From positions 1,178,001 through 1,242,000 of the forward strand of contig NZ_CP093442.1 in the NCBI RefSeq assembly GCF_022814725.1: a stretch of DNA of 64,000 bases, written 5' to 3'. Both the position numbers and the translations under genes were made by a program. This DNA is from Bdellovibrio reynosensis (GTDB taxonomy: Bacteria; Bdellovibrionota; Bdellovibrionia; Bdellovibrionales; Bdellovibrionaceae). A model generated the notes under the pieces. The model saw nothing but the letters and a program-made list of their open reading frames with translations, had not been told where the DNA came from and ran no database searches. Shown piece by piece: positions 51,235 to 59,179 of the stretch (positions are counted from its first letter, which is position 1; every line of letters starts with the position of its first letter).

Positions 51235-51445
51235 AACGATGGACAGTAAGACAAAAGCGAAACACCGTCCAGATGTAAAGGCTCAAACAACACCAGTGTC
51301 TTAATTTAAGAATATTTACCTGCACCCCCATAGTAAAAATGCGAGGACTCACTCAAGGTAAACATTTGTAAGAACTAAATAAATTCCAAAATAAATTCCT
51401 GTAAAGATACTAAACATTCCGTAGGATTCCGCCGAAGAGACGACT

Positions 51446-54400
51446 ATGATGTCTAAAGCCAGTTCGTATTTCATACACATCACAACTGCTCTATTTGCTT
51501 TGTTATTAACAAGCTGTATGGACGCAACGCTGGCTCCTCTATTAAGCGAAAATCAAGTCATGAGAAAAATCACAGTGGAATCTGGCACTGCTGTGTCCCT
51601 TGATGAAGGTATTGGCCATCAAATTACCTTAAGTATTGAGACTCCGGTTGTTCCAGGCGTAACTCTTAAGAATGAAGATCTGGGTTGGACTTTAAATGAC
51701 GAAAACGGTGACTTTGAAGCGTCAAATGGAACACTTATTGTACAGCCGGGGGTCACTTCGATTAGCTTCATCATCAAAGCGACTCGTGATGCTGAAATTG
51801 AAAGTGATGAAAGTTTTCAGCTTCGCTTCACTGGCGAGCATTTCGAAAATCTTGATACAAACCAAATTTCATTCGTCGTAAAAGATAAAACCACGCGTGC
51901 GAAAGTAACATCTTCAGCAAGTCTTGATTTTGGTCCGCAGCTTAAAGATACGGTGGCTGAAAAATCTCTAACTTTTTCAAACTCTGGGGATGCGCCAGCA
52001 CAAGGATTCACTCTCGGCGCGTTGTCGGCTCCCTTTGCATTTAAGGGTGGAACTTACCCTGGTACTGGCGGCACTTGTTCGGGAACATTAAATGGCCATG
52101 CTTCATGTACGGTCGTTCTTACTTACAGTCCAACAGAGGTAAATACCCATTCGCAGAATTTAACTTGGAACTACACAAACCCGGACCTTGCCGACAATGA
52201 TAGCTTAGGCATTTCTGGTTTGGGAGTGGAAGTCGCTGCTGTTCTAGGCGGTCGTCCTGCAGACCCAAGCAACGTGAATGATCTAGATATTACGGTTTCT
52301 GGTACCAATGTCACTCATTACCGCTACAAAGTCGGGCCGCAAGCAAGTACGGATTGTACAGTGGCGACGGGTTATTCTTCTGAAACTGCGATTAGCACAA
52401 AAATCGTGGATGATCTTACTTCGCTAGCGAATCAAAATTTAAAAATCTGCGCGGTCGGAAAAGATTCTAATAATTTCTGGCAACCATTCACAGCCGCAAC
52501 AAGTTATATTTGGAACTTCGACACAATTCGCCCAAGCGTTGTGATCAGCCAAAAAACAGGACAAACAGATCCGACGAATTCTTTGCCAGTAAACTTCTCT
52601 TTAGTTTTTAGTGAAGCAATTGCTGAATCATCTTTAACTGATTCTGACATAAGTTTTACAGGTTCTGCTTTAGTTAGCAGCCACACATTAACGAAAATTG
52701 ATAGTACTCACTATGACCTCACTGTTTCTGCCGTTGATAACAATGGTGTGATTCAGCCAGTGATTAACTCTGATAAGTTTTCTGATCTTGCTGGAAATCA
52801 TAATACCGTTTCCACGGCGAGCGACAATCAGGTAACTTATGATACGGCCGCCCCTGCTCTTCCAAACGCCCTAACTTGGTTACAGTCTTCTCCGTCTAAA
52901 GCAAGTCCTGTGACGGCGCAATGGACGCTTTCAACTTCAACGGACATAGCTGATCAAAAAATCCAGTTCTATAAGGATGCGAGTTGTTTACTTTTAGAAG
53001 GCTCAGCCATTTCACTAGCGACTTCGGCAACCTCTCGCACTTTCTCTGGAGCGGATGGTGAAACTTATACCTATAACCTCACCTTGATTGATACTTCAGG
53101 GAACGTCTCTGTATCTGCCTGTTCTACAGCTTTAGTGTTAGATCGCACAGCACCGACGGTGGCTTCGTTTAATCCTGCAACGAGTATTCGCTCAAGCTTA
53201 CCGACTTCTGTAACTGTAAACTTTAGCGAAGACATGCTTTCCACCTCGATTGAAAATTTAAGTAACTGGGCTATCACTTGTTCAGGTAGTGGATCGGCGT
53301 CAGTGGCAGGAGTGTCTGCTGCTTCAACGACGTCAGCTGTAGTAAATTTAACTGTGTCAGTTGCGCCAGCCAATGCAGAAATTTGTACATTGACTGCAAA
53401 AGCGACTTTGACTGATTTAGCTGGCAATGCGCCGTCTGCAGCTGGAACTGTTTCTTATACACTAGATTTACCGGGTACTGTGGCGTCAGTGACTTCTTCT
53501 TTAGCTAATGGAAGCTACAAAGCCGGTCAAGTAGTACCGGTGTCAGTGCAGTTTAGCGAAAACGTGACTGTGGCAAGTGGCTCTCCGCAACTTTTAATTG
53601 AAACTGGATCTACAGATCAAATCGCTACTTATGTCAGCGGCAGTGGATCAAATACCTTAATCTTTAATTATACGGTTCAGGCTGGAGACAACTCTTCAGA
53701 TTTAGATTATGAATCAGCGAATTCCCTGTCCTTAAACGGAAGCACTATTAAAGACAGCTTTGGAAATGACATGATTTTAACTCTGCCTGCTCCGGGTGCA
53801 ACTGGTTCTTTAGGTGCTAATAAAAATATCGTGATCGATACTCAAGCCCCAGATGCCTTTTCTATCTCAGGTGTTACTGGTGGCACTGATGCAACCGAAG
53901 ATGAATGGCTGACGAATGGCTCGACCGCGACGGCTCATTGGGTCGCAGCGGCTGGTAGTACGCAGTATACTGTAGAGATCCGTAACAATGATGCTTCAGC
54001 TTCGGTCTGCGCTGAACAGACTGTGGCGACGACATCTTATACATTTGCAGGCTGTACCTTAGTAAATGGCACTCAGTACACTTTAAGAGTTGCCGCGAAA
54101 GACGCCGTTGGCAACTCGACAGCGGCGACGAATAATGATTTTGTCTTTAACGTAAATACATCAGCGGTGATCGCGACAATCACGGGACAACCGACTGGTA
54201 AAACCAACCAAACAACACTTAATATTGACGTGGCCGGTGCTGATATTCAGACCTATCGTTATAAGGTCGGCGTTGCAGCCTCTACCAACTGTGCTGATGC
54301 CACTGGTTATTCAGGTGATATCGCCGCGGCTACGAATATTACTAATTCCGTGAGCGGATTAGGTAATACAGACATTAAAGTCTGCGTGATCGGTAAAAAC

Positions 54401-57400
54401 TCTGCTGCTGTGGAGCAAGCTTTAACTTCAGCTACTAGTGTCACTTGGACTCAAGATTTAGTGGCTCCTACTTTGACTATCAATCAAAAATCAGGTCAAG
54501 CAGATCCAACAAATACTTTACCAGCTGAGTTCACAATCGTTGCTAGTGAAGCCGTAACCAACTTTGCAGTTGCAGATATTACCCAATCAGGAACTGCAAC
54601 AGGCATCACATGGTCACTCACCACTTCAGACAATATCACGTGGTCTTTAAAAGCAACGGCCATCACTGGCGCTGGGACGCTTATTCCTTCGATCACTGCC
54701 AATAAACTGACGGATGTGGCTGGTAATAACAACACAGCAAGCACTAGCACGGATAATCTAATTACTTATGAGACTACTAAACCGTCGTTAACTATCAATC
54801 AGGCTTCTGGCCAAACGGATCCAACCAACACCTTGCCGATTGAATTCACGATCATCTTTACGGAAGCTATAAATCCAAGCACTTTCGTTGCTGCGGATAT
54901 CACACAAGGTGGTACAGCTTCTGGTATCACTTGGACTTTATCGACATCTGATAATATCACTTGGACACTGCAGGCAACCGCAATCACGACGGCAGGAACT
55001 TTGATTCCTTCTATTACGGCAGGCAAAGTCAGTGATCCTGCTGGCAATACGAATAATGCATCTACAACTACGGACTCTACGGTTACTTATGATATCACTG
55101 CTCCAGTAAATGCAGCGTCTCTGGCTTGGCAGCAGACAACTCCGACGAATACGACGTCACTTGTAGCCCAGTGGACTAAATCAACCAGCAGTGATCTAGC
55201 GTCACAAAAAGTGCGTTTCTATACCGGGGCTGCTTGTAACACGTATACTGGTACTGAAAACTCTGCTTCAAGTTCCGCAACGACTTCAAATTTCACTGGG
55301 ACTAACGGCAATACTTATACATATCAGGTTATTTCCACGGACACGGCAGGAAATTCCGTCACTTCGGCGTGTTCTAGCGCATTAGTAATCGATACCACCG
55401 TACCAACCGTAACCAACGTCACTTCAAATAAGACAGACGGCGCTTACACAGTGGGCGAAGTTATAGATGTTCGCATCACCTTTAGCGAAAATGTGACTGT
55501 CACTGGCACACCGGTGATCGCATTAAACACGACTCCTGCCCGTTCGGCTTCCTATGTGTCTGGATCTGGCACTTCCACATTAGTATTTAATTATACGGTG
55601 GTAGCGACTGATACTGCTGCCGACCTAAACTATGCGGCAACGACTTCATTAACTATTCCTTCTGCTACTATTAAGGATGCGGCAACAAATAATGCCACCT
55701 TAACATTACCTGCCACCGGCGCTGCGGGTTCACTTGGTACAAATAAAAATATCGTTATTGATACGACGGCACCAAGTATTACTGCGTTCTCGGTAACGAA
55801 TTCAACGCCAACGAACAGCACAACATTTAATATCACTTCTACAGTCAGTGGCTCCCCTGCAACTTATTGTATAATGGAAAATAGTACGACCGTTGCATCG
55901 TGCACTTGGACGGCGGGTGCTACATTGCCTGCGACATTCACAGTGAGCACGGTGAATGAAGCAAAAACTTTGTATGCGTGGGTGAAAGATGCCGCCGGTA
56001 ACGTTAGTAGCATGGCAAGTTCTGCTTCGATTACTTTTGATAATACTCCTCCGACAGCGACTCTTTCTGGACAACCTACTGGCAGCAGCTCGAAATATGC
56101 CTTAAACATCGATGTCAGTGGCAGTGGTGTTGTCGGCTATAAATACAAGGTCGGCGTATCAGGATCCACAGATTGTTCTGTGGCGACGGGCTATTCCGCT
56201 TCCGAGGTCGCTTACACAGTGAACATCACCGATAATATTTCTGCCTTGGCTAACGGCACTATAAAAGTGTGCGTGGTGGGTAAGGATGCTGCCGGTAACT
56301 GGCAGACCTATGCGACGGCGACGTCTGCAACGTGGACTAAAAACTCTCCGGCAATTCAATTTACGGCGACGACATCTTCTGTTTCTGAATATAACGATCC
56401 TACTCATAACGTGGCTGTCAGCATTCCAAGTGCTGTGGATGTGGCGGTCTCGGTATCTTATACATTCTCAAATGGCTCGGCTCCATCTGCGACAATGAGC
56501 AATGACTATACGGCAACAAACGGGACTGCGACGATTGCGGCTGGCAGTACAACAGTTAATATCGCGATTCCAATTCTTGATAACACGACGGAAGAAAACT
56601 CTGAAACTTTCAAACTCACTTTAAGTTCACCAGTCGGTGGATCGCTGGGTACGAACACTGTGCACACAGTGACTATCACTGATGATGAAGCGCCACCGTT
56701 AGTAACTATTCAAGACGTTTACGTTTCCGAAGGAGCTACAACAAACTTAATGGCCACCCTATCGCATCCGACGGACAAGGGTGCCGTTGCTATTAATTGG
56801 ACAAGAGACACTTGTACTGGCGTTGATTGTGCGACGGCTGGCACTGATTACACAATGGCTGTGACTTCAGGAACGGCTTCAGTACCGTCAGGTTCAACGT
56901 CCATCACATTCGGAAGTCTAACTACGATTGATAATGCGGCAGATGAGCTTTATAAACGCGTTCCAATTAAAATCACCAGCATCACCGGTGGTACATCTTA
57001 TATTTCTAACGCGGATATTTTTATTAGCGACAATGACAGTCCTGCAGGTAAGGATGCTGTGGCTATTGGTGCCGGCGACAATCACACTTGCGCGATGACT
57101 AGCAACGGAAATGTTTACTGTTGGGGTTTCAATGGTAACGGACAACTTGCGCAAGGTAACTATTTACCTTATTCGTCCCCACTTCTGATGTCTCTTGCGG
57201 CACCGGCCACTGCAATGTCGACGGCTTACAATAACGTCTGTGCGATTCTAAATACCGGTGCCTTATATTGTTGGGGTCAAGGAAATCACAATACTTATCC
57301 AGGTGCGGGTTTAACTGGAACAAGCAGTACTAGCAACAGATGGACTCCGACCTTGGTAACTGGGATGAGTTCCGGTGTTACTCAAGTCACTGTCGGTTAC

Positions 57401-59179
57401 ATGAATTCCTGCGCAATTCAAAACGGTGCTGTGTACTGTTGGGGTGCTAAAGAGTTCGGAATTCTTGGTGATCCAGCGACTGTATCTTCGACGACGGCTC
57501 CCGTGGCCATTCCAAGTTTAGCAACAGGCGTTACAAAAATATCTAAGGGTCAAACCCATGCTTGCGCGATCAAAGCAGGAACTTTGTACTGCTGGGGATA
57601 TAACACCAATGGTGAAGTTGGAGTCGGTCATATGACTCTAGTTCCGACCCCGACTGCAGTCCCAGGTCTTGGCACGGTTACTAACGTGTGGACTGGCTAT
57701 TACGGCACTTGCGCTAAGAATAGCTCAAACCAAGTCTATTGCTGGGGAAACAATGCCGACAATCAACTTTTAAGTAATAGCACATCAGATCAATCATCAC
57801 CGGTATTAATGACAGAACTTGCTGGTGCTACTGATATTTATTACGGCATTCAATTCTGTGCGGTTCTTAGCGGTGACCTGCACTGTAAAGGCAAAAACTA
57901 TTTTGGTGAAGGTGGTATCAATTCACCTACCGGAGTTTCTAACATCCCATTAACTCCAGTTGTTAATGGCACTGGTGGAGTCACGGCGGTTGCGGGATCA
58001 ACGGGTGCTCACACTTGCTTTATTCGAAATAGCCAAGTTTATTGCACTGGTTTTTCAGGCTGGGGTCAGCATGGTGATACGCAACCACTGCAATCCAATG
58101 CCCATGTGTTAAGTCCTAAATTTAGCGGTGCAAGCAGTCTTTCGATCTTCGTTGAACATGCCTGCGGTATTTTCAGTGGCGCAGTGAAGTGTCTAGGAGA
58201 TAGCAACTACTCTAAGACCGGAAATCTTTTAGTCGACAGGATATATCAAGTAGTGACTCAGGTGAAAAATCTGACTTCTGGAGCTACTAAGGTTGTAACT
58301 TCAAACACAGGAAGCTGTGCTATTGTTTCTGGTGCAGTTCAATGTTGGGGACGCAATTATCTGCGAGGATCAAGTTCAACTTCAGGTAATCCAGCAATCC
58401 CTGCCGGATTGTCGACAGGTGCGACGGATATCGCGGCAAGCTTTGGTGATGTCATGTGTGCCATTGCTTCTGGTAAACTGTATTGCTGGGGCAACGTCGA
58501 CATCATTCCATTCTTTGATATGGAGATTGGCACTTATTATACGCCCGTGGAAGTCACTGCGGCAGGTTCTGATAACGTGAGCGTGCGAATGGGCCGTTAT
58601 CACGGTTGCGTATTAAAAACAGACAAAACTGTATGGTGCACAGGCTACAACCTTCATGGTCAGTTGGGCCTGAACGACAATACGGATCGTATCAGCCTAA
58701 CTCAAGTGCCGGGTCTTACCAATGTTGATGAAATCTCGGCGACAAACTATGGTGCGTGCGCCCGCATCGGAACGACTTCAATTAAATGTTGGGGGCAATA
58801 CCCAGGCAATGGTAGTTCTAGCAATCAAAAAGTTCCTGTGAGCACAGGAACATGGACTAACGTTACGAAACTTGTTGGTGGTAACTACAACCATTGCGCT
58901 ATCCAAAACGGAGCAGCTTCTTGCTGGGGGTTTAATCGTTATGATCAACACGGGAACAACGATTATTTGACGAACGAATATCATCATTCTCCGACGCTTT
59001 TAAATTCGCTAAATGCTGTTGGCACGGTCACGGACGTTGAAGCGCGAGGCACTAACGGTATATGCGGAAAAGTCGGAACTAATTGGTATTGTTCTGGCAT
59101 CGATACTAATAGCGAGCTTGGCACAAGTCGTAAACCGTTCAGATTGGCGCCAGTTTCCATGGGACCATTCCCGAATTAA
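51446..59179 (+). CDS. Giant modular lipoprotein: Ig-like, Calx-beta and RCC1 repeats
   Basis: The 2577-residue protein has a lipoprotein signal (ALLLTSC, C24) and then a long string of modules. There is a HYDIN/ASPM-like domain at about 160-260, three copies of a YRYKVG Cys-pair module (264-353, 912-1008, 1538-1632) and three Big_12-like copies with DPTN-LP (about 360-470, 1010-1112, 1114-1217). Other Ig-like units appear twice (680-800 and 1322-1442). Two Calx-beta domains lie at about 1635-1865, followed by 14 RCC1-like blades to the end, each with C...(Y)CWG. It should stand on the cell surface as an adhesin or recognition protein. ATG at 51449 is an alternative start. Confidence 0.88.
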   Translation: MMSKASSYFIHITTALFALLLTSCMDATLAPLLSENQVMRKITVESGTAVSLDEGIGHQITLSIETPVVPGVTLKNEDLGWTLNDENGDFEASNGTLIVQPGVTSISFIIKATRDAEIESDESFQLRFTGEHFENLDTNQISFVVKDKTTRAKVTSSASLDFGPQLKDTVAEKSLTFSNSGDAPAQGFTLGALSAPFAFKGGTYPGTGGTCSGTLNGHASCTVVLTYSPTEVNTHSQNLTWNYTNPDLADNDSLGISGLGVEVAAVLGGRPADPSNVNDLDITVSGTNVTHYRYKVGPQASTDCTVATGYSSETAISTKIVDDLTSLANQNLKICAVGKDSNNFWQPFTAATSYIWNFDTIRPSVVISQKTGQTDPTNSLPVNFSLVFSEAIAESSLTDSDISFTGSALVSSHTLTKIDSTHYDLTVSAVDNNGVIQPVINSDKFSDLAGNHNTVSTASDNQVTYDTAAPALPNALTWLQSSPSKASPVTAQWTLSTSTDIADQKIQFYKDASCLLLEGSAISLATSATSRTFSGADGETYTYNLTLIDTSGNVSVSACSTALVLDRTAPTVASFNPATSIRSSLPTSVTVNFSEDMLSTSIENLSNWAITCSGSGSASVAGVSAASTTSAVVNLTVSVAPANAEICTLTAKATLTDLAGNAPSAAGTVSYTLDLPGTVASVTSSLANGSYKAGQVVPVSVQFSENVTVASGSPQLLIETGSTDQIATYVSGSGSNTLIFNYTVQAGDNSSDLDYESANSLSLNGSTIKDSFGNDMILTLPAPGATGSLGANKNIVIDTQAPDAFSISGVTGGTDATEDEWLTNGSTATAHWVAAAGSTQYTVEIRNNDASASVCAEQTVATTSYTFAGCTLVNGTQYTLRVAAKDAVGNSTAATNNDFVFNVNTSAVIATITGQPTGKTNQTTLNIDVAGADIQTYRYKVGVAASTNCADATGYSGDIAAATNITNSVSGLGNTDIKVCVIGKNSAAVEQALTSATSVTWTQDLVAPTLTINQKSGQADPTNTLPAEFTIVASEAVTNFAVADITQSGTATGITWSLTTSDNITWSLKATAITGAGTLIPSITANKLTDVAGNNNTASTSTDNLITYETTKPSLTINQASGQTDPTNTLPIEFTIIFTEAINPSTFVAADITQGGTASGITWTLSTSDNITWTLQATAITTAGTLIPSITAGKVSDPAGNTNNASTTTDSTVTYDITAPVNAASLAWQQTTPTNTTSLVAQWTKSTSSDLASQKVRFYTGAACNTYTGTENSASSSATTSNFTGTNGNTYTYQVISTDTAGNSVTSACSSALVIDTTVPTVTNVTSNKTDGAYTVGEVIDVRITFSENVTVTGTPVIALNTTPARSASYVSGSGTSTLVFNYTVVATDTAADLNYAATTSLTIPSATIKDAATNNATLTLPATGAAGSLGTNKNIVIDTTAPSITAFSVTNSTPTNSTTFNITSTVSGSPATYCIMENSTTVASCTWTAGATLPATFTVSTVNEAKTLYAWVKDAAGNVSSMASSASITFDNTPPTATLSGQPTGSSSKYALNIDVSGSGVVGYKYKVGVSGSTDCSVATGYSASEVAYTVNITDNISALANGTIKVCVVGKDAAGNWQTYATATSATWTKNSPAIQFTATTSSVSEYNDPTHNVAVSIPSAVDVAVSVSYTFSNGSAPSATMSNDYTATNGTATIAAGSTTVNIAIPILDNTTEENSETFKLTLSSPVGGSLGTNTVHTVTITDDEAPPLVTIQDVYVSEGATTNLMATLSHPTDKGAVAINWTRDTCTGVDCATAGTDYTMAVTSGTASVPSGSTSITFGSLTTIDNAADELYKRVPIKITSITGGTSYISNADIFISDNDSPAGKDAVAIGAGDNHTCAMTSNGNVYCWGFNGNGQLAQGNYLPYSSPLLMSLAAPATAMSTAYNNVCAILNTGALYCWGQGNHNTYPGAGLTGTSSTSNRWTPTLVTGMSSGVTQVTVGYMNSCAIQNGAVYCWGAKEFGILGDPATVSSTTAPVAIPSLATGVTKISKGQTHACAIKAGTLYCWGYNTNGEVGVGHMTLVPTPTAVPGLGTVTNVWTGYYGTCAKNSSNQVYCWGNNADNQLLSNSTSDQSSPVLMTELAGATDIYYGIQFCAVLSGDLHCKGKNYFGEGGINSPTGVSNIPLTPVVNGTGGVTAVAGSTGAHTCFIRNSQVYCTGFSGWGQHGDTQPLQSNAHVLSPKFSGASSLSIFVEHACGIFSGAVKCLGDSNYSKTGNLLVDRIYQVVTQVKNLTSGATKVVTSNTGSCAIVSGAVQCWGRNYLRGSSSTSGNPAIPAGLSTGATDIAASFGDVMCAIASGKLYCWGNVDIIPFFDMEIGTYYTPVEVTAAGSDNVSVRMGRYHGCVLKTDKTVWCTGYNLHGQLGLNDNTDRISLTQVPGLTNVDEISATNYGACARIGTTSIKCWGQYPGNGSSSNQKVPVSTGTWTNVTKLVGGNYNHCAIQNGAASCWGFNRYDQHGNNDYLTNEYHHSPTLLNSLNAVGTVTDVEARGTNGICGKVGTNWYCSGIDTNSELGTSRKPFRLAPVSMGPFPN

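Follow-up and report, generated by a model that had tools for sequence, protein, structure and literature searches.

The window that we analyzed is a 64,000-nucleotide stretch from the complete genome (3,582,323 bases) of Bdellovibrio reynosensis. It contains a gene for a giant protein that begins with a lipoprotein signal peptide, continues as a stalk of roughly 1,830 residues, and ends in 14 RCC1-type repeats (Table 1). The lipobox cysteine (Cys24) is invariant in 9/9 orthologs, and the residue at +2 is not aspartate. The original prediction was that the protein is extracellular, and the lipoprotein signal supports this. The best reading of the sequence is that the protein is an outer-membrane lipoprotein, with both lipidation and surface exposure predicted. 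In a Pfam search of the whole protein, the Ig-like modules of the stalk matched Big_5, Big_12 (below threshold), and HYDIN-like and fn3-like families. No kinase family was among the Pfam matches of the whole 2577-residue protein, and the propeller region forms its C terminus. The protein has 49 cysteines in total: the lipid cysteine and 48 others.

Table 1. Features of the gene and protein (positions are those of the window).
Feature	Position	Strand	Basis
FliA (sigma28)-like promoter motif, TAAA-N16-GCCGAAGA	51411..51438	+	Same position in nine orthologs
CCGAAAAG box, part of the FliA-like promoter motif			
CDS, 2577 aa lipoprotein, stalk and double RCC1 propeller head	51446..59179	+	ORF call, Pfam
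Lipoprotein signal peptide, predicted lipobox L-T-S-C24, Met at +2	51446..51517	+	Sequence; ortholog alignment
Stalk, Ig-like modules and two Calx-beta stretches, 20 cysteines	51557..57046	+	Pfam, orthologs
Best Calx-beta stretch, residues 1634-1747	56345..56686	+	Pfam
Propeller 1, RCC1 repeats 1-7, 28 predicted strands	57047..58120	+	AlphaFold, UVR8 superposition
Propeller 2, RCC1 repeats 8-14	58121..59176	+	710-residue model, HERC1/HERC2 matches, register alignment
Blade 1 Cys pair, C1882-C1892	57089..57121	+	Motif scan, propeller 1 model
Blade 2 Cys pair, C1932-C1942	57239..57271	+	Motif scan, propeller 1 model
Blade 3 Cys pair, C1989-C1998	57410..57439	+	Motif scan, propeller 1 model
Blade 4 Cys pair, C2040-C2049	57563..57592	+	Motif scan, propeller 1 model
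Blade 5 Cys pair, C2089-C2099	57710..57742	+	Motif scan, propeller 1 model
Blade 6 Cys pair, C2138-C2147	57857..57886	+	Motif scan, propeller 1 model
Blade 7 Cys pair, C2191-C2200	58016..58045	+	Motif scan, propeller 1 model
Blade 8 Cys pair, C2240-C2249	58163..58192	+	Motif scan, orthologs
Blade 9 Cys pair, C2291-C2300	58316..58345	+	Motif scan, orthologs
Blade 10 Cys pair, C2338-C2347	58457..58486	+	Motif scan, orthologs
Blade 11 Cys pair, C2388-C2398	58607..58639	+	Motif scan, orthologs
Blade 12 Cys pair, C2438-C2448	58757..58789	+	Motif scan, orthologs
Blade 13 Cys pair, C2484-C2493	58895..58924	+	Motif scan, orthologs
Blade 14 Cys pair, C2540-C2549 (F and G instead in ortholog L046)	59063..59092	+	Motif scan, orthologs

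The last 710 residues had been reported to hold 14 copies of a two-cysteine motif, so that each blade of an RCC1-type propeller has its own pair. We found exactly 14 copies, with the pattern C-x(8-9)-C-x-G, and all 28 of the domain's cysteines fall within them. The two cysteines of a motif are separated by 9 or 10 residues. The residue after the second cysteine was said to be W, T, K, or L, which is correct for most blades, but blade 14 has C-S-G, so the set is W/T/K/L/S. The proposed start of the repeats, at 57055, misses the reading frame by two bases; the in-frame start is at 57047 (residue 1868). The repeats match WD40_RLD (E = 4.6e-66, 224 bits with a cut-off of 150), RCC1 (E = 1.9e-31, 108.8 bits with a cut-off of 21.7), and RCC1_2 (101.1 bits with a cut-off of 22) from Pfam. 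Also, 49/49 cysteines are invariant in seven orthologs with propeller identities of 59-80%. Because the Pfam scores are above the curated cut-offs and the cysteines are invariant, the 14-repeat pattern in the sequence is far beyond chance.

The 14 blades had also been expected to form two seven-bladed propellers. We used AlphaFold to predict the structure of the first seven repeats, from an in-register alignment of 14 sequences, most of which have seven repeats. The resulting model of propeller 1 (pLDDT 88.8, pTM 0.89) has 28 strands in a closed seven-bladed ring, and its residues 1-358 superpose on UVR8 with Z = 50.1 and an rmsd of 1.7 Å over 348 residues. Further structural matches include HERC2 (Z = 42.5), RCC1 (Z = 40), and BLIP-II (Z = 26.7). 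For the second ring our confidence is lower: a model of all 710 residues, built on four sequences only, is weak (pLDDT 60.7, pTM 0.50), and it models poorly how the two rings sit relative to each other. The propeller 2 half of this weak model, which is of medium confidence, matches the RLD domains of HERC1/HERC2 (TM 0.70-0.75, rmsd 4.2-4.6), and the sequence of propeller 2 shares its register with propeller 1 and seven-repeat proteins. The numbers of repeats in related proteins peak at multiples of seven: among 212 relatives, there are 74 with 7 units, 59 with 14, and 5 with 21, so that 138/212 are exact multiples, compared to an expectation of one in seven. Relatives with 12 or 13 counted units probably have units that were missed; a cysteine-blind repeat model counts 13 units in the window protein. 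These counts support two rings. A recent duplication of a whole propeller does not appear to be the source of the 14 blades, as unit k is no closer to unit k+7 than in other pairings.

In the model of propeller 1, 7/7 cysteine pairs lie on adjacent antiparallel strands, which agrees with the original prediction that the cysteines are near enough to pair. Given the strand limits of the model, each pair occupies two consecutive strands and its midpoint coincides with the midpoint of the hairpin to within half a residue; therefore, the two cysteines should face each other. The cysteines are more conserved (100%) than tryptophan (76%) or glycine (90%). Among the orthologs, the sole exception in the head is blade 14 of a more distant ortholog (L046), where both cysteines are gone together; the stalk cysteines that are absent from L046 go with its shortened stalk. 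More broadly, among 2,279 repeats in related proteins, 1,931 have both cysteines, 272 have neither, and just 76 have one. As for the oxidation machinery, a profile search of the genome placed a VKOR domain and a DSBA domain in the same 411-residue frame (G000:C1:656994-658139), while a search of the genome for DsbB found none. Because the pairs are register-matched, conserved, and lost together, and because a VKOR-DsbA protein is present, disulfides are strongly supported. We infer that the thiols are oxidized, and that the paired cysteines of each of the 14 blades very probably form one stabilizing bond. The 20 stalk cysteines look paired as well, with equal spacings of 31-32 and 45 residues that recur in repeated modules. 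The sequence of the stalk suggests about ten more disulfides, and the whole protein would then have 14 disulfides in the head and about 24 altogether.

The ectodomain of CRINKLY4/ACR4 from plants (PDB 7a0j, 7a0k) is, like the predicted head of the window protein, an extracellular seven-bladed propeller of the RCC1 type with a cysteine pair in each repeat. The pairs in CRINKLY4 have the form C-x10-CWG and were interpreted as disulfides (PMC4617170). The close cysteine pair of the CRINKLY4 (CxxG) type is present in 14/14 blades of the window protein. The sequence-profile match to 7a0j has E = 1.1e-20, and propeller 1 aligns to CRINKLY4 ectodomains with Z = 24.2 and 23.3. The window protein lacks a kinase and has two propellers on an Ig-like stalk with a predicted lipid anchor, in contrast to CRINKLY4, which combines a single propeller and a TNFR-like cysteine-rich domain with a kinase and a transmembrane helix. 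UVR8, the RLDs of HERC1/HERC2, RPGR, and RCC1 share the seven-bladed fold, but they are intracellular (cytoplasmic or nuclear) and have different functions, and the aligned sequence of UVR8 lacks a cysteine pair in each blade. BLIP-II from Streptomyces is an exported bacterial propeller with seven RCC1-type blades, and it binds protein with its face. BLIP-II (1jtd, 3qhy, 3qi0) has the same fold as propeller 1 (Z = 26-27), but it is a single free propeller of about 270 residues with no lipid anchor or stalk.

Three other accounts of the repeats and their cysteines seem improbable. If the paired cysteines bound a metal or stayed reduced as a redox switch, this would fit with the regular close cysteine pairs that can ligand metals in other proteins. 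But each blade has an isolated pair across a hairpin, with no additional conserved histidine or cysteine to complete a metal site, there are Tat-type relatives without the pairs, and the equivalent in plant CR4 was read as disulfide-stabilized (PMC4617170), so we consider a metal or redox role to be quite unlikely. It is also very unlikely that the fourteen repeats form one ring, a 6+8 split, or an open arrangement. The low confidence of the 710-residue model at the junction leaves some room for this, but the units of relatives come as 7, 14, or 21, seven-repeat relatives are in register with each half, and the first half by itself (residues 1-358) closes as a full ring on UVR8. Finally, the name of the repeat family and the fold might suggest a RanGEF or a chromatin-binding protein of the RCC1 type. 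The lipoprotein signal, the extracytoplasmic stalk, and the disulfide pairs are at odds with such a role, the family name reflects the fold only, and we know of no Ran in bacteria; we give this idea almost no credence.

To our reading, the region just upstream of the gene points to regulation by FliA. In 9/9 orthologs there is a CCGA(A/T)AAG-like sequence just 5' of the start codon, with a TWAA-like box at a constant distance upstream. A consensus for attack-phase promoters in Bdellovibrio, TTAAG-N16-CCGATA, is attributed to FliA in PMC3627812, and the motif in the window matches this consensus at 10/12 positions. With a 12-position promoter score (threshold of 10 or more) that we devised after seeing the site in the window, and whose spacing agrees with the independently published consensus, 31/108 RCC1 genes score at least 10, versus about 2 expected from shuffled sequences and versus 9/311 neighboring genes. 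These FliA-like matches are found in 15/50 sequence families, and most of them are near the start codon (typically 7-13 bases away). None of the RCC1 genes whose products lack blade cysteines (see below) has a FliA-like site. Only 7 bases separate the -10 box in the window from the start codon; the mRNA would be nearly leaderless, which weighs against our reading. Similar short spacings recur across the RCC1 genes of the genus. The promoter motif suggests expression of the gene in the free-swimming attack phase. A scan of the region for sigma70 promoters found nothing above chance.

The gene neighborhood is mostly not conserved among the orthologs. We considered YaeQ (downstream) and SelO (upstream) as operon partners, but neither gene is kept beside most of the orthologs. 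We found neither a conserved neighboring gene nor a known ligand-binding site that would indicate the function.

The cysteine pairs are not universal in the family. Our survey covered 172 RCC1 proteins of five or more units, whose export signals we assigned by simple rules (no trained predictor). Blade cysteines are wholly absent from 15/172. Tat signals were assigned to 14/15 of these Cys-free proteins: 13 by score, and L194 by eye (SRRDFLK). The Cys-free protein L150 has a degenerate motif (ARNFLRF) and is encoded beside a paralog with RR. No lipobox was found in any of the 15. In contrast, the cysteine-paired proteins include 114 lipoproteins and 30 with Sec-like signals; five have RR matches that look like chance, and three of these five also have a lipobox. 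A later search identified one additional Cys-free protein with RR (L243). Outside our sample of the phylum, there were no Cys-free proteins among about 40 RCC1 proteins, all of which are mainly cysteine-paired, with Sec or lipoprotein signals where these are readable. The Cys-free Tat proteins L050, L051, L094, L096, L113, L115, L142, L145, L150, L188, L190, and L194 have enough repeats for one to three rings (7, 14, or about 21), and there are tandem gene pairs at L096, L113, and L150.

A Fisher test of cysteine state versus signal type gives about 5e-15, in a comparison that ignores the kinship of these related proteins. On the trees, the Tat/Cys-free class needs 3-4 changes, but a single Cys-free clade is not rejected (p-AU 0.247). 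We therefore do not claim several separate origins, and one evolutionary event, or just a few, may lie behind the association. Tat exports folded proteins. Since the cargo is already folded, disulfides that form outside of the cytoplasm would come too late. Somewhat tentatively, and with less than even confidence, we propose that the RCC1 proteins of Bdellovibrio and its relatives are a large and variable repertoire of FliA-controlled, attack-phase surface binding heads, whose chemistry is set by the export route (a disulfide in each blade for Sec or lipoprotein members, which would fold outside; none for Tat members, whose folding would be cytoplasmic).

The family also has unusual members. 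L015:42-2780 has 14 repeats, is fully cysteine-paired, and has an N terminus like that of a type IV prepilin (GFTVTELIIVIVVIGVL); a pilin may thus carry its propeller head. In L073 (G004:C27), an in-frame TGA interrupts the RCC1 gene, which is perhaps a decaying copy. An extreme expansion is seen in a metagenome-assembled genome from Myxococcales (G251, via L020), which by itself has about 88 RCC1-domain matches.

What might the double propeller do? The mean identity to orthologs is 68% for the head versus 81% for the stalk, so the head diverges faster. This could be due to relaxed constraint instead of recognition. Genomes differ greatly in how many RCC1 proteins they encode: in two near-complete genomes from the same genus (G015 and G017) we found no RCC1 match, while others have many. 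If both of these organisms are predators too, then the family is not essential for the lifestyle. Where the function of an RCC1-type ring is known, as for UVR8, RCC1, and BLIP-II, it generally involves protein binding. The fast divergence of the head, the precedents for protein-binding propellers, and the variable number of RCC1 proteins lead us to favor an accessory surface binding head. Alternatively, the propellers might be structural or protective surface material (S-layer-like, a matrix, or a spacer) that lacks any specific ligand, and the disulfides would help them resist harsh conditions and proteases, including the predator's own. The stalk-like architecture is compatible with this, as are the wide occurrence of relatives in the phylum and in metagenome-assembled genomes of other groups and the genomes without any RCC1 match; the invariance of 49/49 cysteines implies that stability is selected. 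But the faster divergence of the head is the opposite of what a purely structural role would lead us to expect, and the rings of UVR8, RCC1, and BLIP-II argue for binding. Overall, we think that a purely structural role is rather doubtful. We consider it likely that the protein is an outer-membrane lipoprotein whose Ig-like/Calx-beta stalk presents two disulfide-clamped propellers as a putative attack-phase binding head.

For this binding head, we envision the following mechanism. The FliA-like promoter would activate the gene in the free-swimming attack phase. Sec would export the protein unfolded, and Cys24 would be lipidated. Outside of the cytoplasm, the VKOR-DsbA enzyme would oxidize the cysteines on neighboring strands to give one intra-blade disulfide per blade, and these would clamp the propeller rings. 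The propeller faces would then bind a surface ligand, and this ligand would most plausibly be on prey or on other cells.

Some Bdellovibrio proteins that were annotated as "RTX toxin" actually consist of RCC1 repeats, and this misannotation has been pointed out (PMC5941755). Those proteins are from the same genus and the same repeat family as the window protein; the accessible text of that paper does not describe their blade count, cysteine pairs, export route, or promoter. Our literature search found nothing specific about bacterial RCC1 proteins with paired cysteines. The fold and the CRINKLY4 propeller with one pair per blade were already known; for the cysteine pattern, the double head, the export split, and the promoter, we found no earlier description in the literature that we searched.

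If our interpretation is correct, then predatory bacteria have a class of surface lipoproteins that is large and has hardly been described; its members are candidates for the binding heads of the hunting cell and are sometimes mislabeled as toxins or as chromosome-condensation proteins. It would also mean that the bacterium and the CRINKLY4 receptors of plants have in common the solution of one disulfide per blade. The nearly all-or-none split between Tat proteins (no blade cysteines) and Sec or lipoproteins (cysteines in nearly every blade) makes the co-evolution of secretion route and disulfides testable. If the export route does set the chemistry, then one could follow in this family, as in a natural experiment, the gain or loss of a full set of disulfides by one fold as its secretion pathway changes.
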